Below are positions 4,867 to 36,131 of a stretch of 46,916 nt of DNA, piece by piece; the first letter of the stretch is position 1; each line of letters starts with the position of its first letter. A program made the translations under genes and the position numbers. Source of the DNA: Vulcanimicrobiota bacterium (lineage in GTDB: Bacteria > Vulcanimicrobiota > Vulcanimicrobiia > Vulcanimicrobiales > Vulcanimicrobiaceae); contig PLED01000096.1 in assembly GCA_003136355.1 (NCBI GenBank), forward strand, positions 1 to 46,916. Reading direction: 5' to 3'. The notes below the pieces were generated by a model. That model was not told the origin of the DNA. It worked only from the letters and a program-made list of their open reading frames with translations, and made no database searches.

Positions 4867-4926
4867 CCTCTCGACATGCGCCCTGAGGGGCGCTGCTCGG
4901 GGTCCTTCGACAGGCTCAGGATGACA
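4867..4926. repeat. Hairpin repeat copy B
   Basis: CTCTCGACAT-GCGCCC-tga-GGGGCGC-TGCTCGGGGTCCTTCGACAGGCTCAGGATGACA; abuts the permease start codon. Confidence 0.88.
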
Positions 4927-11263: not shown

Positions 11264-11326
11264 CCCTCCCTTCGACTCGCGACCTTCGGCCGCTGCTCAG
11301 GGTCCTTCGACAGGCTCAGGATGACA
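11264..11326. repeat. Hairpin repeat copy D
   Basis: CCCTCCCTTCGACTC-GCGACC-ttc-GGCCGC-TGCTCAGGGTCCTTCGACAGGCTCAGGATGACA; overlaps the serpin 2 stop codon. Confidence 0.9.
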
Positions 11327-12479
11327 ATATCGAGTTAATCACGCCTATAAAAAGCAGCGAGCCCGTCTGTTCGTTGCGCAGCGCAAAGATGAACGGGCGA
11401 TTGACGATGAACTGTTTCGGCGGTTCCTGCATCGCAGTGGTGACAATTGTGACCGCGGTTGCGGCGGCCGCCGTCGTTCCCTTTTCGTCAACGCGCACGT
11501 AGGCTTGGTGGCGTACGTCAGAAATCGTCAGCCCCGGCGGGGGCGTATGCATGAGCGAGAAGTCCGCCGCTCCGGAAAACGCGATGCCCATGCCGAGCGA
11601 CTTCAAGACGTTAACAAGCGACGTATCGTAAGTGGCTGTGAACTTCGGAAGCATGACCTGAAGGCGTTGTGTCGTCATGCTCGCGGCGATGCGGTCGAAA
11701 TTGAGGGCGTTCGTGTACGTCAAGAATTTGGTTGCCGTGACGCCGGCGTTGGGCAGGATGATGTAAGCGGCGTAGCCGCCTTTACCGTAAGGCAGGCGAA
11801 TCGCGCTGGAGATCGTGCCGTCGAACTCTTTGAACATGCCGGTTTCCGACATCGTCGGAACGATTGGTTTCGATCCGTCCGCGTTGGTGAAGGGTCGCGG
11901 ACGCGTGTCGTCTTTTTTGAACGGCTGCGACCAGTCGGCTTTAAAGGCTAGCGCGTTGGTGAGATAGGCGAAGTCGGACTTTTGCGTTTGCGTGATAAGC
12001 TTGTCGATCAGTCCGAGCGTATGCGACTTCGTCCATCCGTTGATCGCAGCTGCTGCCGACGGATTGCCGAATTGGAGCGCTTGCGCTTGCGCGCCGTAGC
12101 TTTTCTTTAGGAGAGAGACGTAGGCGGCTTTCGGCGGAATATCTTGCCGGAACCAAAGCGCGTTGGCGACGCCGACCTGGGCGTCGTGATTTCCGGCGAG
12201 CGCGCTCATCAGCGCTGCGTTCGCGGGCGCGAAGGAAGTGGCCGAGAAGCCGAGCGCGTGCGCGATCGCCGCGCGCGTCTCTCCGCGGGCTCCGTCGGCT
12301 GCCATCGAGAGCGCCATCCCGATGCTCAGGGGCGAGATAAAAACGTTTTGGTTTTTGGCTTGCGGCGCGAGACGCTGAAGAAGCGCAATTCCGAAGCCGT
12401 CGTAGTTGGCCGGCTTGGATGCGGGCGCCGCCGCACTCAGGCTGCCCAGCACCGCTGCCAATATTAACCATCTCTTCAT
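11316..12479 (-). CDS. Secreted serpin, copy 2
   Basis: Signal peptide; FISPLSIGMALSMAADGARGET; hinge GTTAAAATAV; NRPFIFALRNEQTGSLLFIGVIN. Confidence 0.95.
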   Translation of the reverse strand: MKRWLILAAVLGSLSAAAPASKPANYDGFGIALLQRLAPQAKNQNVFISPLSIGMALSMAADGARGETRAAIAHALGFSATSFAPANAALMSALAGNHDAQVGVANALWFRQDIPPKAAYVSLLKKSYGAQAQALQFGNPSAAAAINGWTKSHTLGLIDKLITQTQKSDFAYLTNALAFKADWSQPFKKDDTRPRPFTNADGSKPIVPTMSETGMFKEFDGTISSAIRLPYGKGGYAAYIILPNAGVTATKFLTYTNALNFDRIAASMTTQRLQVMLPKFTATYDTSLVNVLKSLGMGIAFSGAADFSLMHTPPPGLTISDVRHQAYVRVDEKGTTAAAATAVTIVTTAMQEPPKQFIVNRPFIFALRNEQTGSLLFIGVINSILSS

Positions 12480-12536: not shown

Positions 12537-14762
12537 ATGCGTTTCGCAGTTTCGGCACTGCTGCTTTCCACGTTGTTTCTGACCGCGTGCTCTTCCAATT
12601 TACCGCGGGTGCTCAATCCCGGCAGCGCCACGCAGGCACTGGATCTCTCGCCTTCGCCGGTGGAACTCACCAACGACACGCCGGTTTCGTCGTTCACGGC
12701 GCAAAACGACGTTCCCGGCCTTTCCTATACACCAAGCGCGGACCCGAGCTGTCAGAACTCGTCAGGCGGCATCTACGTCGGCGGCGACGGCCAGGCACAG
12801 ATCGACGTGGCGGGCGCACCGCTCATGTTCACCGTTTACGCAGCCGGAGCGCCGCCTTCGACGTGCACGGTCACCGTGCGTTCGTCCAACGGAGATTCGG
12901 CGACGGTCGACGTCTCCTATCAAGTGATGCTCGTGCAAGCGATTGGCGAAAAATCCGATGCGATTACGATGGCGGTCTCGCCGGGTGTGAACCCCAGTGC
13001 GACCACGATCACGAAACTGACGCAGATCATTTCTCTGGCTGCCAGCGGGTTTAGCGGAACGATGACGGCCTCGGTGAGCGGCTGTCCGGCGACGGGAAGC
13101 GGCCTTCAAGTCAGTCCCAAGCAGATCGCCGGCGCGAGCGGAACGTTTGTCGTCGCGGCATTCGGGCAAGGCAACATGTCGTTTTCGTGCAACGCGATTA
13201 TTACCGACAGCGTGAACAATAGCGTCACCGTCCCGATAACGGTTTCGATCGGCGCCCTCAACAAGTTTACCGTTACTCAATCGGGCAAGCTCCAGTTTGC
13301 CTGCGCGGGGACGACGGTTCCCAAACATTGTCAAACGATTCAAACCATCACGATGCAGGAAGCCGGCGCGACGAGTTTTGCGATCGCCGATAAACCGTCG
13401 CTCATACACACGTGCGCGAATTCGTTCAACGGCCCGCTGAAGATGGTGACCACGCCGACCGGCGCGCCGCTGAACAGCGTGCCTGGGCCGACGGCGACCG
13501 TCGCGTTCGACGGTTTGTTGCCGATCGCCGCATTGGGCTGCTCGCGGATCGTCGTGACCGATGGGCGCTCGCCGGAGCAAACGGTTAACGTTCCGGTCGA
13601 CGGTGCTCTCGCCGCCGCGCCGCCGCCGGCTATTTCAACGGCGGCTGCGCCGGCTTGTAAGGGCAACGATCCGTTGGTCGCCGTTCCGGGCGCGCCGCAC
13701 GGGATGTACGTGTGGAATCCGAACGCATTTCCGAAGTACCTTACGCCGCTTGCGAATGACGTGATCGGGATCGATCACACATTGTGCGGAGCGAGCTTGG
13801 TGATCTCGTGGGCCGACTTGGAACCAACGAAGGGAAATTTCAACTGGCAATTCGTTGCGGACGAGGCCAAACCGTACACGGATAAAGGTTTGACGGTCAA
13901 TCTGCTCTTCTCGGATTCAACCGAAGGTCCGACCAACAACATCACGCCGGCTTGGGTGACCGATCCGGCAAGCGCGGGTGGCGATGGAGCACCGACGGTG
14001 ACCTGCACGGGTCAGCCGACGATTCCGGTGTTTTTCAGTCAAATTTTCGAGAACGACTGGGAGGCGTTTATTGCGACCGTTACGCACCAGTACAGCTTCA
14101 ACAATTCGGGGCTTGCACCGAGCGTCGGTTATCTGCGCTTTGCCACTGCCGGCGGAGCGGAAGCGCTTCCGCCGACAGGTTACAACGACGGCGGCGCGTG
14201 TCAGTCGCTGTGGACTGCGGCCGGCATGACCTACCCGGTTTGGAAGCAACACGAAATCAACATCGTGAATACGATGGCGGCGCAGTCGACCGACAAGCAA
14301 ATGATCGTTTCACTCCCCGGGCTCTCGGGCGGACCGAATAAACCGGGCACCAACACGACCGACGTTTACGATATGTCGAATGCGGTTGCGGCTGTTGCGG
14401 CGTCCAAGCACATCGGCTTCTCATTTGAAAACCTCGGCACGAAACCCGTCTCACCGCCGGCGCCCTGCAATCCGGCGGCCAATCTTATCGACTTGCACTG
14501 GTGCCAGGCGTATCACACATATGCGGGAGTGGTTCCGCTGAACATGCAGCCGATCACCGCGAGCAGTAACCATAACGACGGGACGTTCGATATCGCGGAT
14601 CTGTTGCCGTACGCGCTCGATAACAACATCCAAGTCTTCGAGCTCTATCCGGACGAGTGGATCCAAGCCGACTCTCCGGAGTTCGCGGGCTTCCTCGGCC
14701 AAGCCGCGCATTATAAGGCGGCGCTAAATAATGCGTCGCTGGTCTTAGGGGTTTCGCCTTAG
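12537..14762 (+). CDS. Large secreted lipoprotein with N-terminal Ig-like/beta regions and C-terminal barrel-like domain
   Basis: RBS aggaggaaactg; lipobox LFLTACSSN; C-terminal LVISWADLEPTKGNFNWQFV. Confidence 0.75.
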   Translation: MRFAVSALLLSTLFLTACSSNLPRVLNPGSATQALDLSPSPVELTNDTPVSSFTAQNDVPGLSYTPSADPSCQNSSGGIYVGGDGQAQIDVAGAPLMFTVYAAGAPPSTCTVTVRSSNGDSATVDVSYQVMLVQAIGEKSDAITMAVSPGVNPSATTITKLTQIISLAASGFSGTMTASVSGCPATGSGLQVSPKQIAGASGTFVVAAFGQGNMSFSCNAIITDSVNNSVTVPITVSIGALNKFTVTQSGKLQFACAGTTVPKHCQTIQTITMQEAGATSFAIADKPSLIHTCANSFNGPLKMVTTPTGAPLNSVPGPTATVAFDGLLPIAALGCSRIVVTDGRSPEQTVNVPVDGALAAAPPPAISTAAAPACKGNDPLVAVPGAPHGMYVWNPNAFPKYLTPLANDVIGIDHTLCGASLVISWADLEPTKGNFNWQFVADEAKPYTDKGLTVNLLFSDSTEGPTNNITPAWVTDPASAGGDGAPTVTCTGQPTIPVFFSQIFENDWEAFIATVTHQYSFNNSGLAPSVGYLRFATAGGAEALPPTGYNDGGACQSLWTAAGMTYPVWKQHEINIVNTMAAQSTDKQMIVSLPGLSGGPNKPGTNTTDVYDMSNAVAAVAASKHIGFSFENLGTKPVSPPAPCNPAANLIDLHWCQAYHTYAGVVPLNMQPITASSNHNDGTFDIADLLPYALDNNIQVFELYPDEWIQADSPEFAGFLGQAAHYKAALNNASLVLGVSP

Positions 14763-14767
14763 GTTTT

Positions 14768-14828
14768 CCCTTCGACTGGCGCATCGAAGATGCGCTGCTC
14801 AGGGTCCTTCGACAAGCTCAGGATGACA
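14768..14828. repeat. Hairpin repeat copy E1
   Basis: CCCTTCGACTG-GCGCATC-gaa-GATGCGC-TGCTCAGGGTCCTTCGACAAGCTCAGGATGACA. Confidence 0.92.
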
Positions 14829-14836
14829 ACGTGTGA

Positions 14837-14882
14837 GGCGTTCTGCCGCGCCTAAGCGCGGCTTGACTCGCTCACCATGACA
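14837..14882. repeat. Hairpin repeat copy E2 (CTCACCATGACA variant), overlaps pepA 3' end
   Basis: GCCGCGC-ctaa-GCGCGGC stem-loop then TTGACTCGCTCACCATGACA. Confidence 0.65.
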
Positions 14883-16393
14883 CTCTTAGAGGTCTCGCCG
14901 TTTGTTGAGCCGTTGGCCGAGAGTTGTTCGGCAAAGGCCACAAAAGCGCGCACCGGCGTTCCGGTCGGACCCTTGGCTTGCCACGACGATTCGCTATCGA
15001 GATAGGCGGTGCCGGCGATATCGAGATGCACCCAGGGCGTATCGCCCGCGAAGGCTTTCAAGAAGGCCGAAGCGGTAAGCGTTCCGGCCGGGCGGCCACC
15101 GGTATTTTTGAGATCGGCGATATCGCTCTTCATTAGATCAGCGTATTCGTCGTAGAGCGGCATCTGCCAATAACGTTCGCCGGTCGGCTTGGCGGCGGCC
15201 AGGAACGCTTGCACCAATCCGTCGTTGTTGCTCACCGCGGCGCTGGCTGTATGGCCAAGCGCGATGACGCAGGCGCCGGTCAGGGTGGCGGCATCGACGA
15301 TCCGCGTGGCGCCGAGTTTGTTCGCGTAGCAGAGCGCGTCGGCCAGAATCAGCCGGCCTTCGGCGTCGGTGTTGATCACTTCGATTGTCTTGCCGTTCAT
15401 CGCGGTGAAGATGTCGCCCGGCTTGGTCGCGCGGCCGCCCGGCATGTTTTCGGTCGCGGGCGCGATGCCGACGACGTTGATCTGGGGTTTCAGTTTGCCG
15501 ATAGCACGCATCGCCGCGATTACGCCGGCCGCGCCGGACATGTCGTATTTCATTTCTTCCATGCGCTCCGGCGGTTTGAGCGAAACGCCGCCGCTGTCGA
15601 AGGTGATGCCTTTGCCGACGAGCGCGAGTAATTCTTTGCTCCCGGGATTTCCCTGGTATTTCAAAACGATGAACTTCGGCGGCTGCGAGCTGCCTTGCGC
15701 GACCGAAAGAAATGAACCCATGCCCTCTTGACGGCAGCGATCTTCGTCGAGGATGTCAACTTCCAGGCCCGAATCTTTGGCCGCTTGCTGCGCGGCTTCG
15801 GCCAGATGCGTGGGCGTCATGTCGTTGGCCGGCGTGATGGCCAGTTTGCGCGCGAAGTTTACCGCGTCGCCCAACACTTCTCCGCGCGAAATCCCGGCTT
15901 GTAAGGCCTGCTCGTCACAATCGCCGGCAATCAGCGTGAGCGTGTCGGCGCCGCTGCGTTTATCCGGAGACTTCTGGTAAACCGACGCGTCGAAACTTCC
16001 GGTGAGGGCGCCTTCGACCAGCAACGAAGCGGCGCCGGTTTCATTTCCTTTTACTTGCGGCGGAAGAACCAGTGCGATGTCGCGCACGTTGCGGCGTCCC
16101 AGATAACGCACGGCCGTACCGGCGAATCGCGCGAGCATGTACGGTTCGAATCGCTTTGCGTCGCCCAGGCCAATGAGCAGCACGCGCTTGAATGGTTTAT
16201 CGTGCGCGTGAACGAGGCTGACTTCGCCGAACTTCCCGCTGATTTCGCCTTTGAGCACCTCGCCGAGCGCGCCTTGCAGCTGCGTATCGATCTCTTTGGC
16301 CGCGCCTTCGAGCGCCGCGCCGGCGAAAATAGGCACGACGAGAGCGGCGGCGCGCACGGAACCCGGCGCATCATGAACGATACGAACTTGCAT
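14852..16393 (-). CDS. pepA: Leucyl aminopeptidase (M17)
   Basis: LVGKGITFDSGGVSLKPPERMEEMKYDMSGAAGV, NTDAEGRLILADALCY; start MQVRIVHDAPG. Confidence 0.96.
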   Translation of the reverse strand: MQVRIVHDAPGSVRAAALVVPIFAGAALEGAAKEIDTQLQGALGEVLKGEISGKFGEVSLVHAHDKPFKRVLLIGLGDAKRFEPYMLARFAGTAVRYLGRRNVRDIALVLPPQVKGNETGAASLLVEGALTGSFDASVYQKSPDKRSGADTLTLIAGDCDEQALQAGISRGEVLGDAVNFARKLAITPANDMTPTHLAEAAQQAAKDSGLEVDILDEDRCRQEGMGSFLSVAQGSSQPPKFIVLKYQGNPGSKELLALVGKGITFDSGGVSLKPPERMEEMKYDMSGAAGVIAAMRAIGKLKPQINVVGIAPATENMPGGRATKPGDIFTAMNGKTIEVINTDAEGRLILADALCYANKLGATRIVDAATLTGACVIALGHTASAAVSNNDGLVQAFLAAAKPTGERYWQMPLYDEYADLMKSDIADLKNTGGRPAGTLTASAFLKAFAGDTPWVHLDIAGTAYLDSESSWQAKGPTGTPVRAFVAFAEQLSANGSTNGETSKSVMVSESSRA

Positions 16394-16450
16394 GGTCGAC
16401 CTTTCGATTGGGTGAAGAGGACTTAAAATGCCGATCCGAGTCTTTCCCGC

Positions 16451-17443
16451 GTGACGCGCGATTCCTACGCCGCTGCAGGCGTGGATATCGCCGCGGGCAA
16501 CGAGGCAGTAGCGCGCTACAAAGACGTTATGGGCGGCTGGCGGCATGCGGGCCAGATCGACCAGATCGGCGGCTTTGGCGGGCTTTTCAGCCTTCCGGGG
16601 GATGCCGCACGCGCGCTCGCGGCTTCTACCGACGGGGTCGGAACCAAGCTGCTGATCGCGGCCGAGCTCGAGCGCTACGGCAGCATCGGCGCGGATCTCG
16701 TGAATCACTGCGTCAACGATATTCTCGTCGTCAATGCGACACCGCTGTTCTTCTTGGATTATCTGGCGGTCGGAAAGCTCGAGCCGGAGATTGCGGCGGA
16801 AATTGTGCGCGGCTGTTTCGAAGCGTGCAAGAAACACAACTGCGCGCTGCTCGGCGGCGAGACAGCGGAGATGCCGGGGCTTTACGCGCAGGGGCATTTC
16901 GATCTCGCCGGCACGATCGTCGGTTTGGTCGATTTGTCGGACGTGCCGAAGAAAGAAGACGTCGTGCCTGGAGATGCGATCGTCGGGTTGCCTGCGGTCG
17001 GATTACATACCAATGGGTATACGCTGGCGCGGAAGCTGCTCGACGTGCCGGCATTCGGCGACGCTTTGCTGGCGGAGCATCCTTCGTACTACAACGACGT
17101 GCGAGCGATACAAAAGGTTGCGCGCGTTCACGCGATGTCGCACATTACGGGCGGCGGGTTGCTGGAAAACATTCCGCGCACGCTTCCGGATAACGTCAAG
17201 GCGATCTGCGAGCAGTCGCGCTGGGAAGTGCCGGCGATCTTCGCTGAGTTGGTGAAGCGTGGCGATCTCGGACACGAAGAGCGCTACCGTACCTTCAATA
17301 TGGGAATCGGTTACACGCTCGTCGTTCCGCTGGCGGACGCGGCGAAAGCGATCTCGGCAGTGCAAGGTGCGAAAGTTATCGGCTGGATCGAAGCGCGTAG
17401 CGGCGACGAGCCGCGTGTCGTCGTTCACCCCGCGCGCGAATAG
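16451..17443 (+). CDS. purM: Phosphoribosylformylglycinamidine cyclo-ligase
   Basis: YAAAGVDIAAGNEAV, ASTDGVGTKLLIA, LLGGETAEMPGLY, HITGGGLLENIPR. Confidence 0.97.
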   Translation: MTRDSYAAAGVDIAAGNEAVARYKDVMGGWRHAGQIDQIGGFGGLFSLPGDAARALAASTDGVGTKLLIAAELERYGSIGADLVNHCVNDILVVNATPLFFLDYLAVGKLEPEIAAEIVRGCFEACKKHNCALLGGETAEMPGLYAQGHFDLAGTIVGLVDLSDVPKKEDVVPGDAIVGLPAVGLHTNGYTLARKLLDVPAFGDALLAEHPSYYNDVRAIQKVARVHAMSHITGGGLLENIPRTLPDNVKAICEQSRWEVPAIFAELVKRGDLGHEERYRTFNMGIGYTLVVPLADAAKAISAVQGAKVIGWIEARSGDEPRVVVHPARE

Positions 17444-17444
17444 C

Positions 17445-18590
17445 ATGGCGGGGCGGGAGCTCGTCAATCTTATCGTCGACCTCGATAGCGCGGCCCTCGG
17501 CTATACTCGCGGATCGTTCCAATGGTCCGTACTCGATCGCGGCCCCTTCGACACGCGCGCCGAGCGCGCTACTCAGGATGACAATGCTTTGTGGCCGTGG
17601 ATCGATTACGAGTTTGGCGGGACGTGGAGCTCCGAAGCGTTTGCCGGAAAAAATATCGTCGCGAAAAAAGGTGACCGGTTTGCGGGATTTGCGACCTACG
17701 ATTCGGCGGGGCTGAAATTTTCTTGGCTGCGCGGATTGGGAACGAAAGACGGCGTCGGGATCTTCGGACCGTTTGGGGTTTCCGCCGAGTTTCGCGGTTC
17801 GGAGTTGGGGCCGGCGTTGTTGCGGGCAGCGCTCGGAGGATTGCGCGGGGCGGGCTACGTGCGCGCGCTCATTCCGGCGGTCGGCGGCGACAAGCTCATC
17901 GACTATTATCAGAAGCATATTGGGGCGACGGTCGCCGAGCGATTCGATCGTTCGCGGTGGCGCGAGAAGAAATGGCGCACGGTTGTCCTCGCGTCGGGGC
18001 GGGGCACGAACTTTCAATCGATCATCAATGGCGTAGCGACGGGTGCGCTTCCGTTAGAGATCACGGCGCTGGTTTCCAATAACCCGAATGCCGTTGCGCT
18101 GCAGCGCGCGCGGGCGGCGCATATTCCCGCGATTTCGTTGCCGTGGGAGCGCGCCACGCAGCTGCGTCCGGATTACGATGCGCAACTCTCCGAAACGGTC
18201 CGGCGTGCGGAGCCGGATCTCGTTTTGCTTTTGGGGTGGATGCATCTGCTGGACGACCGTTTCATCGCCGAGTTTCCCGAGACGATCAACATTCATCCGG
18301 CTTTTCTCCCGTTGGCGGAGGGCGCGAACGAGGTGGTCTTTCCCGACGGCAGCTCCTCGCCGGCCTTTCGCGGTGCACGCGCGGTTCGCGACGCGCTGGC
18401 GTGGGGGAGCCGGTGGACGGGCGCGACCGCGCATCGCATTACGCTGCATACCGACCGCGGACCGGTGCTCGTGCGCAAACCGCTTGCGATAAACGCGGGT
18501 GAAACCGAAGACGGCGTTTTGGAGCGGCTCCACCCGATGGAGCATCAAGTGATGCGCGAGGCGATTATGCGTTGGGTGTTCGAGAGGTAA
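17445..18590 (+). CDS. purN: N-terminal GNAT-like domain fused to phosphoribosylglycinamide formyltransferase
   Basis: GNAT-like block GVSAEFRGSELGPALLRAALGGLRGAGY...YYQKHIGATV; PurN block VVLASGRGTNFQSIING...NIHPAFLP. Confidence 0.88.
   Translation: MAGRELVNLIVDLDSAALGYTRGSFQWSVLDRGPFDTRAERATQDDNALWPWIDYEFGGTWSSEAFAGKNIVAKKGDRFAGFATYDSAGLKFSWLRGLGTKDGVGIFGPFGVSAEFRGSELGPALLRAALGGLRGAGYVRALIPAVGGDKLIDYYQKHIGATVAERFDRSRWREKKWRTVVLASGRGTNFQSIINGVATGALPLEITALVSNNPNAVALQRARAAHIPAISLPWERATQLRPDYDAQLSETVRRAEPDLVLLLGWMHLLDDRFIAEFPETINIHPAFLPLAEGANEVVFPDGSSSPAFRGARAVRDALAWGSRWTGATAHRITLHTDRGPVLVRKPLAINAGETEDGVLERLHPMEHQVMREAIMRWVFER
17543..17583. repeat. Hairpin repeat copy F, in frame inside GNAT-purN
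   Basis: CCCCTTCGACAC-GCGCGC-cga-GCGCGC-TACTCAGGATGACA, translated RGPFDTRAERATQDDN. Confidence 0.9.
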
Positions 18591-18592
18591 CT

Positions 18593-18766
18593 TTAGGATT
18601 CGAGAATGTGCAGGCGGCGTTCGAATGCGTCGAAGCGGATATCCACGGAATCGAAGCGCTTGTTCATCTTGTACTCGAACTCGTCGAACCGGCGACCCAT
18701 GTCAGCGCGCAGTTCGGCCCGCAGCGAAGTGAGGTCTGCGGTCGTCCTTCGACTACGGGTTCGCAT
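18593..18766 (-). CDS. Small coiled-coil ORF (57 aa), start codon inside repeat G
   Basis: Reverse complement reads MRTRSRRTTADLTSLRAELRADMGRRFDEFEYKMNKRFDSVDIRFDAFERRLHILES*; heptad-like. Confidence 0.55.
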   Translation of the reverse strand: MRTRSRRTTADLTSLRAELRADMGRRFDEFEYKMNKRFDSVDIRFDAFERRLHILES

Positions 18767-18789
18767 TGCGAACCCTACTCAGGATGACA
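18745..18789. repeat. Hairpin repeat copy G
   Basis: TCCTTCGACTAC-GGGTTCGC-att-GCGAACCC-TACTCAGGATGACA. Confidence 0.92.
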
Positions 18790-18820: not shown

Positions 18821-19807
18821 CTAGCGGTTGACCGCCGCCATCGCGGCGTCCGGATAGCGGTTGCCGGCGGCGGCGCCTTGTGGAAAGATTTCCTCCAGTT
18901 GCTGCAGCTCGTCGCCTGAGAGCGAAACATCGAGCGCCTTGACGTTTTCTTCCAAATATTTGCGGCGCTTCGTGCCGGGAATCGGGACGATGTCGTCGCC
19001 TTGTGCTAGAAGCCACGCCAGCGCAATTTGCGACGGCGTAGCGTTTTTGGCTTTGGCGATTTTCTTGACTTCGTCGACGAGCTCGAGATTGCGTGCGAAA
19101 TTCTCGCCTTGAAAGCGCGGATGGTTGCGGCGCGTGTCATCCTCGGGCAAGTCTTCGGGCTTTTGAAAGTGTCCGCTCAAGAAGCCTCGGCCGAGCGGGC
19201 TGTACGGCACGAATCCGATCCCCAATTCGCGGCAGGCCGGCAACACTTCGCTTTCGGGATCGCGCGTCCAGAGCGAATATTCCGTTTGTACAGCCGTGAT
19301 TGGATGAATCTTGTGCGCGCGGCGAATCGTGGGCGCCGCGGCTTCGGATAATCCGACGAAACGGATCTTGCCGGCGCTGATGAGTTCGGACATCGCGCCG
19401 ACGGTTTCTTCAATCGGCGTATCCGCGTCGACGCGGTGCTGGTAGTAGAGATCGATGTGATCGAGCCGCAGATGCTTTAGCGAAATGTCGCACGCTTCTT
19501 TGACGTATTCGGGACGGCCGTTCACGCCTTTCCAACTGCCGTCGGCTCCGCGGACGTTGCCAAATTTCGTCGCCAAAAATACTTGATTTCGCCGATCGCG
19601 AATGGCGCGGCCGACGAGTTCCTCGTTTTTGCCTTGGCCGTAGACGTCGGCGGTGTCGAGAAAATTCACGCCGAGTTCGAGCGCGCGATGGATGGTCGCG
19701 ATCGATTCAGTATCGTCGCGGCCCGAGTAAAAATCGGACATGCCCATGCACCCGAGTCCGAGGGCGGAGACCTGTGGGCCGTTGCGGCCGAGCGTGCGGT
19801 GTTTCAT
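18821..19807 (-). CDS. Aldo/keto reductase
   Basis: [29 protein letters not shown]...[39 protein letters not shown]. Confidence 0.95.
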
Positions 19808-19879
19808 ACCGGATGGCTTAGGGCGAAACTGGCCTGCCCCTTCGTGGCGGAAATCCACCTTTTTTGGTATCATTCAACC

Positions 19880-20125
19880 ATGGCGATCAACTTGAAGGAC
19901 CCTGAGACCGAGGCGCTCGCGCGCGAACTGGCTCGCCAAACCGGCGAGAGCCTTACCGCCGCAGTGGGTCAGGCGGTTCGCGAGCGGCTGGAACGGTTGC
20001 GTTTGCGTCGGAGCCGCCGGGCGGCGCTCGAGCGGGTACTCATAAGCGCGTGGGAGTTGCCGCGCATTGACCCGCGAACGCCGGACGAGATCATAGGCTA
20101 CGACGAGCACGGACTGCCCCGTTAA
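19880..20125 (+). CDS. vapB: VapB-type antitoxin (PSK/Rv0623-like)
   Basis: MAINLKDPETEALARELARQTGESLTAAVGQAVRERL, followed by a PIN gene 3 bp downstream. Confidence 0.88.
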   Translation: MAINLKDPETEALARELARQTGESLTAAVGQAVRERLERLRLRRSRRAALERVLISAWELPRIDPRTPDEIIGYDEHGLPR

Positions 20126-20128
20126 GGC

Positions 20129-20518
20129 ATGATCCTCGATACCTCGGCCGTGGTCGCGTTGTTGCTTAACGAACCCGAAGCGTCCGAATTTCTAACGCTC
20201 GTGCAAACGGCGGATTCAGTCGCAATTGGTGCACCGACACTCCTCGAATGCGAAATGGTGCTCGCAAAGATCTTGGGGGCAGAGGGGCTCGTGCGCGTCG
20301 ACGAGTTTCTTAGAGTCCTTGGCGTTGAGATTCTTCCGTTCGGCGAACGTGAATTGGCCGTGGCGCGGACGGCTTTTCGAAGTTACGGGAAAGGACGCGG
20401 GCGGGCCGGACTGAATTTCGGCGATTGTTTTAGCTATGCAGTAGCGATCACGCGCGACGAACCCTTACTTTTTAAAGGTAGAGATTTTTCGCAGACCGAC
20501 GTGCGAACAGCTTCATAA
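20129..20518 (+). CDS. vapC: VapC-type PIN-domain ribonuclease toxin
   Basis: MILDTSAVVALLLNEPEA, LNFGDCFSYAVA, LLFKGRDFSQTD. Confidence 0.93.
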   Translation: MILDTSAVVALLLNEPEASEFLTLVQTADSVAIGAPTLLECEMVLAKILGAEGLVRVDEFLRVLGVEILPFGERELAVARTAFRSYGKGRGRAGLNFGDCFSYAVAITRDEPLLFKGRDFSQTDVRTAS

Positions 20519-22255: not shown

Positions 22256-23227
22256 ATGTACGTCCTCGCGCCAGCCCCCACCCTCTACGGACGGCATTTT
22301 CTCACGGTCGACGACTTTTCGGCCGACGAGTTAGGGGCGCTGCTGCGCCTGGCCGCTTATCTGAAGGGGCGGCGGACCGCGGAACAGTCCTCGGTACTCC
22401 CCGGAAAAACGCTGGCAATGCTCTTCGAAAAGCCCAGCCTGCGCACGCGCGTTTCCTTTGAAGTCGCGATGACGCAACTCGGCGGGCACGTCATTTTCGC
22501 CGACGGCCAAGAATTTTTGATCGGCACGCGCGAGTCGCCCGAAGACGCTGCGCGCGCGCTTTCACGTTACGCCGATGCGATCGTCATCCGCACGCATGCG
22601 CACGAACCGCTGCAGCGCTTTGCCGACGCGGCGACGGTGCCGGTCATCAACGGTCTGTCGGCGGCGGCGCATCCGTGCCAGGCGCTCGCGGATCTGCTGA
22701 CGATGCAAGAGCGTTTCGGTTCGCTGCAAGGCTTGACGATCGCGTTTGTGGGCGACGCAAAAAACAACGTCGCAGCGTCGCTGGCGGAAGCGGCGGTGAT
22801 GGCGGGTGCAACGATACACTTCGGTTCGCCGCCGTCGCATCGTCCGTCGGAACATTTCCTCGCCAAACTCAAAGCGATGGGAAAGACGACCGGCGGTGAC
22901 GCGCGGGCGTTCTGCAGCGCGGTGCGCGCGGTGCGGGGAGCCGATGTCATTTACACCGACACCTGGACTTCGATGGGCGAAGAGGCGTCGACCGAACGCA
23001 ATCGCGCAGTACTTTCGCCCTTCCGCGTAACCGATGATCTCTTCACGCACGCGGCGGGACACGCGATTTTCATGCATTGTCTGCCGGCGCATCGTGGCGA
23101 AGAGGTTACCGCGGCCGTTATTGACGGGCCGCGCAGCGTCGTTTTCGATCAAGCCGAGAACCGCATGCACGCGCAAAAATCTTTGCTCGTCGCACTCATG
23201 ACGACGCTCAAGGGTTTTCCGCTATGA
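22256..23227 (+). CDS. argF: Ornithine carbamoyltransferase
   Basis: FEKPSLRTRVSFEVAMTQLGG, HPCQALADLLTM, FMHCLPAHRGEEV. Confidence 0.97.
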   Translation: MYVLAPAPTLYGRHFLTVDDFSADELGALLRLAAYLKGRRTAEQSSVLPGKTLAMLFEKPSLRTRVSFEVAMTQLGGHVIFADGQEFLIGTRESPEDAARALSRYADAIVIRTHAHEPLQRFADAATVPVINGLSAAAHPCQALADLLTMQERFGSLQGLTIAFVGDAKNNVAASLAEAAVMAGATIHFGSPPSHRPSEHFLAKLKAMGKTTGGDARAFCSAVRAVRGADVIYTDTWTSMGEEASTERNRAVLSPFRVTDDLFTHAAGHAIFMHCLPAHRGEEVTAAVIDGPRSVVFDQAENRMHAQKSLLVALMTTLKGFPL

Positions 23228-23231
23228 ACGG

Positions 23232-23292
23232 CCCCTCGACTGGCGCACCTGCGGTGCGCTGCTCGGGGTCCTTCGACAAGCTCAGGATGACA
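23232..23292. repeat. Hairpin repeat copy H
   Basis: CCCCTCGACTG-GCGCACC-tgc-GGTGCGC-TGCTCGGGGTCCTTCGACAAGCTCAGGATGACA. Confidence 0.92.
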
Positions 23293-26382: not shown

Positions 26383-27392
26383 CGCGGGTGCACGTGTGGG
26401 GCGCGTCGGGATACGGCGCATCGGAAGCGATCGTGTCTTTATCCGCGCATCCGCTGGTCGAATTGGGATTGCTGGAAAGCGCGAGTCTCGGCGGCGAGCC
26501 CGTTGGTTTGCATTTTCCGCGGTTGCGTACGCTCGATCGCTTTTTCGATTTTCCAGGCGCGATCTTGAGCGCGATCGGGCCGGACGACGTTGTCATCATG
26601 GGCGGAGCGCATGGTTCCGCCAAAGAGGTCGCGCCGAAGTTTTTGGAAGCGGGCGCGCGCGTGATCGACCTCTCCGAAGATTTCCGGCTGGCGCCGACGC
26701 GGGCGGTCTACGGGTTTCCCGAGCGTTACAAGGCGCAGATTGCCGGCGCGCGGTTCGTTGCGAATCCGGGGTGTTATCCAACCGCGACGCTGCTTGCGGT
26801 GCTGCCGCTGGCTCCATTCGACGTTACGCAGATCATCGTTGACGCGAAGAGCGGCATCACGGGCGCGGGACGTAAGCCGTCGGTGCGCGCGCTCTATGCC
26901 GAAGTTGCCGGCGATATTCACGCGTATGGTTTGGAAGGGCACCGGCACGAGGCCGAGATCGTGCAAGAGTTAAGCGCGGCGGGAATCGATGCGCCGCTAC
27001 TTTTTACGCCGCACGTCGTTCCGCTCGCGCGCGGGATGCTCGCCGATGCGTACATCGTGATGCGCTCTGTGCCGGATGCGAGCGCGGTGCGCGCTGCGTA
27101 CGCGCGGTATTATGCGGGCAATCCTTTTGTGCGCTTACTCGACGCGGGTGTGTCGCCGAGCGTTGCCGCGGTCGCATACACCAACGATGCGGAGATCGCG
27201 GTATCGGTCCACGGTAACGTGGTGCGAGCGATCTGCGCGATCGACAACCTCGGCAAAGGGGCCGCGACACAAGCCGTGATGAACATGAATATCATGATGG
27301 GATTTCCGGAGCAGAGTGGGTTGGTTGCGCGCCCTCTCGCTACGCTCGAGGTCCTTCGACCGGGCGCGCCGACGGCGCGCCGCTCAGGATGA
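26379..27392 (+). CDS. argC: N-acetyl-gamma-glutamyl-phosphate reductase
   Basis: VWGASGYGASEAI, FVANPGCYPTATLLA, GITGAGRKPS. Confidence 0.95.
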   Translation: MTRVHVWGASGYGASEAIVSLSAHPLVELGLLESASLGGEPVGLHFPRLRTLDRFFDFPGAILSAIGPDDVVIMGGAHGSAKEVAPKFLEAGARVIDLSEDFRLAPTRAVYGFPERYKAQIAGARFVANPGCYPTATLLAVLPLAPFDVTQIIVDAKSGITGAGRKPSVRALYAEVAGDIHAYGLEGHRHEAEIVQELSAAGIDAPLLFTPHVVPLARGMLADAYIVMRSVPDASAVRAAYARYYAGNPFVRLLDAGVSPSVAAVAYTNDAEIAVSVHGNVVRAICAIDNLGKGAATQAVMNMNIMMGFPEQSGLVARPLATLEVLRPGAPTARRSG

Positions 27393-27394
27393 CA
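27332..27394. repeat. Hairpin repeat copy I, spans argC 3' end and argJ start
   Basis: CCCTCTCGCTACGCTCGAGGTCCTTCGACCG-GGCGCGCC-gac-GGCGCGCC-GCTCAGGATGACA. Confidence 0.92.
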
Positions 27395-36106: not shown

Positions 36107-36131
36107 GTCCTTCGACAGGCTCAGGATGACA
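36107..36131. repeat. Repeat copy L (single short unit)
   Basis: GTCCTTCGACAGGCTCAGGATGACA. Confidence 0.88.

Follow-up and report, generated by a model that had tools for sequence, protein, structure and literature searches.

A palindromic repeat lies in frame within a GNAT-PurN fusion gene of an uncultured soil bacterium and within loops of other conserved proteins

The GNAT-PurN locus and its repeat copies

We analyzed a 46,916-base stretch of DNA, referred to as the window, from an uncultured soil bacterium (Ca. Eremiobacterota) of a soil and peat phylum. The window forms the first 46,916 bases of the 85-kb contig C87 of its own genome, G000 (2.52 Mb, 111 contigs). It contains a GNAT-PurN fusion gene whose product matches Acetyltransf_1 at residues 63-160 and Formyl_trans_N at residues 178-295. 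This fusion is general in the family; in sister families, the GNAT domain and PurN are separate genes, with matches on separate contigs. The relevant genes and repeat copies are as follows.

16451-17443, + strand: purM (AIRS, AIRS_C), its stop one base 5′ of the GNAT-PurN ATG
17445-18590, + strand: GNAT-PurN fusion gene, ATG at 17445, stop ending at 18590, 381 aa; orthologues compared
17511-17542, + strand: degraded first unit of a compound repeat, reading GSFQWSVLDR; codons compared with loci L071 and L072
17543-17584 (core 17545-17583), + strand: intragenic long-form repeat copy, inner hairpin GCGCGC-CGA-GCGCGC, translated as PFDTRAERATQDDN
1171-1252, + strand: intergenic compound repeat copy
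4882-4926, + strand: intergenic compound repeat copy
11282-11326, + strand: repeat copy over the 3′ end of the − strand gene 11316-12461, giving that gene's TGA stop (11315-11326)
14747-14891, + strand: repeat copy pair (14747-14828, 14847-14882)
18746-18789, + strand: intergenic long-form copy 3′ of GNAT-PurN, stem GGGTTCGC/GCGAACCC
23211-23292, + strand: intergenic compound repeat copy
27353-27394, + strand: long-form copy giving the last codons and TGA stop (27390-27392) of the gene 26388-27392
36109-36131, + strand: intergenic short-form copy

The copy at 14847-14891 also gives the TAG stop of the − strand gene 14852-16837. Downstream of GNAT-PurN, a small ORF pair at 19583-20518 putatively encodes a VapB-like antitoxin and a PIN-domain VapC-like toxin, as judged by eye from the translations.

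A sequence-only reading had placed a full repeat unit in frame near the N-terminus of GNAT-PurN, and our analysis bears this out. The core at 17545-17583 on the + strand, CCTTCGACACGCGCGCCGAGCGCGCTACTCAGGATGACA, follows the plan CCTTCGAC–hairpin–CTCAGGATGACA, and the ORF stays open across it, reading ...RGPFDTRAERATQDDNALWPWIDYEF in translation; the repeat stretch of the predicted protein runs ELVNLIVDLDSA...PFDTR. The pattern CCTTCGACN{3,27}CTCAGGATGACA matched 8 times in the window as opposed to 0.00 times in 100 dinucleotide shuffles. Both the identity of the repeat and its in-frame position are near certain.

Structure and distribution of the element

Element units measure 23-50 bp and often occur as compound head-to-tail pairs. 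Each unit is built from a 5-bp outer stem, an asymmetric internal loop and an inner hairpin of 5-10 bp with a 3-5 base loop, the last being absent from short-form elements. Core copies all end in ...ATGACA, which is TGTCAT on the other strand, where the element reads TGTCATCCTGAG-hairpin-GTCGAAGG. The outer stem was paired in 65 of 66 elements, compared with 40 on average and never more than 50 in 2000 shuffles, and its two central pairs covaried (CC/GG 49, GG/CC 13, CG/CG 3, mismatch 1; n = 66). The stem continues into the flanking positions, where T at −1 stood opposite A in 49/66 elements and A or G at −2 stood opposite T in 60/66, mostly as G-T. Inner stems of the 26 long-form elements had 21 distinct arm sequences and averaged 7.7 bp, as against 3.7 bp when shuffled; the inner stem conserves structure, not sequence. 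Folded alone as a single strand, the window copy scored mildly better than shuffles (z = −1.5); the evidence for structure comes from the covariation seen when copies are compared.

The 12-base tail CTCAGGATGACA occurred 106 times in the genome, while a reversed control word occurred 0 times. The pattern was present throughout the genus (all seven genomes) and patchy in the family, and the rest of the phylum had almost none. Similar sequences may occur in other phyla. One copy (L079:7205-7256) holds N bases, and assembly breaks may hide some copies in G000. No Rfam family matched the repeat, its DNA had no match in a plasmid collection at E 0.01 (a weak test with a 40-base query), and literature searches with its letters returned only unrelated primer-type matches; we found no described Eremiobacterota repeat in the literature searched. 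A search of the seven genomes of the genus for Y1_Tnp (PF01797), the REP-associated Y1/RAYT transposase, likewise gave no match, with a positive E. coli control.

Element density was very uneven along the genome, and long runs of elements shared an orientation: all 37 elements on contig C87 (85 kb) lie on the + strand, and contigs of the congener G006 behaved likewise (C4 16/16, C7 8/8 and C8 35/36 in one orientation). We considered two causes of these runs; coding strand does not explain them, and GC skew agrees in G000 and fails in G003. Separately, a long-form array with a spacing of about 59 bases, in which minus-strand copies are followed by plus-strand copies, was observed at G015:C1:68592-69634.

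Different repeats at one place in GNAT-PurN orthologues

The insertion had been expected to span about 14-17 aa and to be unique to this lineage, and comparison of orthologues supported neither expectation. The same repeat is present in the sister species G005 and, degraded and shortened, in G002 (QGPFEWDVLTRAEHATQGDSG). A different repeat occupies GNAT-PurN of G006 (VPFDRLRMTS; AVPFDRLRMTSRPGRQTAPAHHE), and G015, which belongs to another genus, carries LPFDFACPERSELRERSRRAQDDS at the same place. The distance from the start to WIDYEF is 51 residues in G000 versus 49 in repeat-free congeners, a net gain of about 2 aa, and the upstream MAxRELVNLVVDL is conserved in all congeners. Because the net length differs by only +2 aa from repeat-free orthologues, the repeat replaced a variable segment between ELVNLVVDL and WIDxxFGGxWS and did not simply lengthen the domain. 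GNAT-PurN has no repeat in G001, G003 and G004, with G003, for example, reading ...GLAKTLRAIASAGFEIERVAPGEERFFS before WIDYEF. The sequence-only reading would have been refuted by orthologues with a conserved, equally long stretch free of the repeat. Taken literally, these three genomes do have such a stretch of similar length, and it points to replacement without canceling the exact repeat match.

We also compared the codons directly 5′ of the core, where the residues SFQWSVLD had been taken as a plausible part of the GNAT-like domain. In G005 (locus L071) they read GGT CCC TTC GAA TGG GCG GTC TTG GGC CGT ACT CGT CCC TTC GAC and form a second, degenerate CCCTTCGA unit directly upstream of the core, an arrangement that the window's intergenic compound copies also show. 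The corresponding first unit of the window has decayed to GGA TCG TTC CAA TGG and can be identified as a repeat solely through the sister species (CCCTTCGAATGGG...), which still has CCCTTCGAATGGGCGGTCTTGGGCCGTACTCG where the window has the degraded unit at 17511-17542. Since G005 keeps this recognizable unit upstream of the core, SFQWSVLD is best read as repeat-derived and not as GNAT sequence, and the repeat-derived part of the predicted protein amounts to about 27 residues. An AlphaFold model of GNAT-PurN, built from a 9-sequence alignment, had a mean pLDDT of 51 and was too poor to place the insert.

A tree of the insert-free protein parts grouped G000, G005 and G002, with G006 next and then G003/G001/G004. 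Given this grouping, the simplest account is one compound insertion before the split of G000, G005 and G002, together with separate events in G006 and G015.

In-frame copies in other conserved proteins

We took a census of elements in 416 kb of G000, consisting mostly of stretches chosen for their repeat matches plus the window, so that its densities are not genome averages, and in 400 kb of G003 around its purN. In G000, where genes were called with a simple coding-potential gene finder (coding density 0.91), 17 of 82 unique elements lay inside predicted genes and 10 across a gene edge, as opposed to about 75 expected inside genes at random; element copies avoid genes overall. Not counting copies at protein ends (one N-terminal in MurD, several C-terminal) as true internal insertions, we found inserts in CtaD, RF3, YabN/MazG, Mfd, LigA, a GH38 mannosidase, PurL, QueG, an S9 peptidase and a molybdopterin dehydrogenase. 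Curated family matches flank the inserts on both sides in CtaD, RF3, Mfd, LigA, PurL, QueG, the S9 peptidase and the XDH-like protein. At the insert, the NAD-dependent DNA ligase LigA (L085:14013-16094) has 51 residues versus 12 in E. coli LigA, the 39 extra residues being repeat-derived with tandem VMVSDANT units; RF3 has 35 residues versus 5 in a solved RF3 reference (30 extra), and QueG shows a smaller excess at its loop relative to a solved protein. In G003, 12 of 46 elements lay inside genes, flanked on both sides by 20 or more residues, and their carriers, read by eye from the sequences, include QueG, PurL and UvrC-like, RecG-like and aspartate-semialdehyde-dehydrogenase-like proteins.

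Genes read the element in either orientation and in several different frames. No read-through is possible in those frames that have an internal TGA, which fits selection against disruptive insertions. In all five genes that we compared between species (LigA, RF3, PurL, QueG and GNAT-PurN), the same loop held different repeats or none. The LigA loop contains repeats that differ in copy number and sequence in G000, G005, G006 and G003, no repeat in G001 and just a short VLS stretch in G002. RF3 has a different repeat-derived linker in nearly every congener and short linkers in other genera, while QueG carries different reverse elements in the same loop. In PurL, one and the same loop holds a forward element in G000 and a reverse element in G003, and this opposite orientation argues for separate insertion or replacement and against drift from a single insert in an ancestor. 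The coincidence of insertion sites is accounted for by permissive loops.

Constraint on the repeat codons and the origin of the insert

Constraint on a hairpin at the DNA level is not expected to track codon phase. In the 28 repeat codons of one species pair, G000 and G005, 11 changes fell on about 19.8 synonymous sites and 7 on about 64.2 non-synonymous sites (dS 1.0, dN 0.12, Fisher P ~ 7 × 10−5 on truncated counts), and the remaining GNAT-PurN protein pointed in the same direction (dN/dS 0.06-0.11). Because synonymous changes far exceed replacement changes within the repeat, it is very probably translated in the cell and constrained; drawn from 28 codons and a single species pair, the case for translation is strong but not final. 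Together with the orthologue comparison and the copies in other genes, this test supports the earlier proposals that the element moves and that repeats become protein sequence.

We consider it highly probable that a mobile, REP/MITE-like, TGTC-tagged palindromic element entered GNAT-PurN, where it was tolerated, translated and constrained, and that its family entered other genes as well. The copy in GNAT-PurN would go back to an ancestor shared by at least three of the species in the genus, in which it displaced a variable segment close to the N-terminus of GNAT. Since the reading frame stayed open, the copy would have been tolerated and translated, and would then have evolved under protein-level constraint. 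Members of the same family would likewise have come to lie in permissive loops of many conserved proteins in these genomes, in either orientation and in more than one frame, and these loops would exchange repeats between species. We infer that entry was neutral and that movement proceeded via a hairpin DNA intermediate handled by some enzyme; the inserted peptide probably had no function when it entered, and later constraint is possible.

Low replacement rates inside the purN repeat (dN/dS ~0.12) and the occupation of the same loops in most congeners could also arise from co-option, in which the element family would provide proteins with linkers or loops that improve or regulate them, the peptide itself being under selection. 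We regard this as improbable, given that the use of both orientations and several frames makes the peptides differ between genes, that G002 and G001 have no LigA repeat and that genes are depleted of copies overall.

The N-terminal site of the repeat leaves a small chance that translation begins downstream of it, for example at the TTG in AATGCTTTGTGG, which would make the repeat a 5′ leader. One in-frame TTG does lie just 3′ of the repeat, and REPs found at the N-terminus of annotated ORFs often lie outside the gene proper (PMC3733652). However, the genus and the family conserve the upstream MAxRELVNLVVDL as well as the distance of its start from purM, G005 lacks that TTG, and synonymous changes are in excess within the repeat, while the inserts in other proteins lie deep inside; such a start is very unlikely. 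The fragmentation of the G000 assembly into 111 contigs might speak for coincidence or for a wrongly joined metagenome contig. This is scarcely credible when zero matches are expected by chance and the separately assembled sisters refute it, with the same repeat in G005 and its degraded form in G002.

Beyond the entry of a mobile element into tolerant sites, we tentatively suggest that a few permissive loops of housekeeping enzymes (LigA, RF3, QueG, PurL and GNAT-PurN) may be landing and swapping sites for repeat cassettes, some of whose peptides come under selection, although we think this less likely than not. From one species to another, such loops would gain cassettes, lose them or exchange them for others in frame, even with the orientation reversed, for which PurL is an example. 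If true, new protein segments would be in permanent supply in a bacterium that lacks an obvious transposase for the element.

Relation to known palindromic elements

Most descriptions of protein-coding palindromic repeats concern obligate intracellular Rickettsiales; REP cases in other groups are scattered. The same behavior now appears in an uncultured soil and peat phylum, in about ten conserved proteins within the 416 kb sampled. Related species in which the same loops are empty or differently filled make it directly testable whether such inserts are tolerated or useful, and the search for a Y1 transposase, which found none, raises the question of what moves the elements. Annotators should be aware that a peptide like SLSKDPEQRAEG or PFDRLRMT within a protein can derive from a repeat.

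The element resembles several known classes in part. Like MITEs with open frames (RPE-1, ERIC and the Yersinia palindromic sequence; PMC2229807), it fuses in frame to host ORFs, but those are about 100-200 bp long with terminal inverted repeats (PMC2229807), whereas the units here span 23-50 bp. It shares its size, hairpin, dispersal and some intragenic copies with GTAG-tagged REPs accompanied by a RAYT (REPtrons), and differs from them in the lack of a Y1_Tnp match in the seven genomes of the genus.

Closer parallels are found in the CGTC-tagged REPs, which have a terminal CGTC (TGTC or CCTC allowed), complementary AT at stem positions 1 and 2, an 8-9 bp stem and a 4-5 base loop; TGTC variants are known, no transposase is dedicated to them, and intragenic inserts code for 20-30 residues (PMC3733652). 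Different REPs occur at about the same recB site in two Xanthomonas species (PMC3733652). The present element likewise has TGTC followed by AT, intragenic copies that code for 20-30 aa and no dedicated RAYT transposase. As for the AT of the stem, its second position pairs in 49/66 elements here, and its first pairs or wobbles in 60/66. In contrast, it has a 5-bp stem, an asymmetric internal loop and a 5-10 bp hairpin in place of the 8-9 bp stem and 4-5 base loop, its units are often head-to-tail and not head-to-head, a CCA tail was not seen, and its stem plan is not as given for CGTC-1 to CGTC-4. Because it departs from the 8-9 bp stem plan, even though it shares the tag and the lack of a transposase, we do not place it in the CGTC REP families.

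RPE-4, RPE-6 and RPE-7 are Rickettsia palindromic elements (PMC3767692, PMC3733652), of which RPE-6 and RPE-4 are the CGTC-1 and CGTC-4 REPs of Di Nocera and co-workers (2013, PMC3733652), and an RPE-bearing Rickettsia guanylate kinase is translated and active (PMC2229807). Unlike in Rickettsia, the host phylum here is GC-rich, uncultured and from soil and peat, and the element combines a 5-bp outer stem with an inner hairpin that can be exchanged, and frequently forms a compound pair arranged head-to-tail. As with these three RPEs, however, the palindromes are short, contain ATGAC and lie in frame within conserved and apparently functional proteins; orthologues have different element types at matching loci, and no dedicated transposase is known. 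On the best reading, the present element behaves like the Rickettsia protein-coding palindromic elements and is a related palindromic element in a new phylum.
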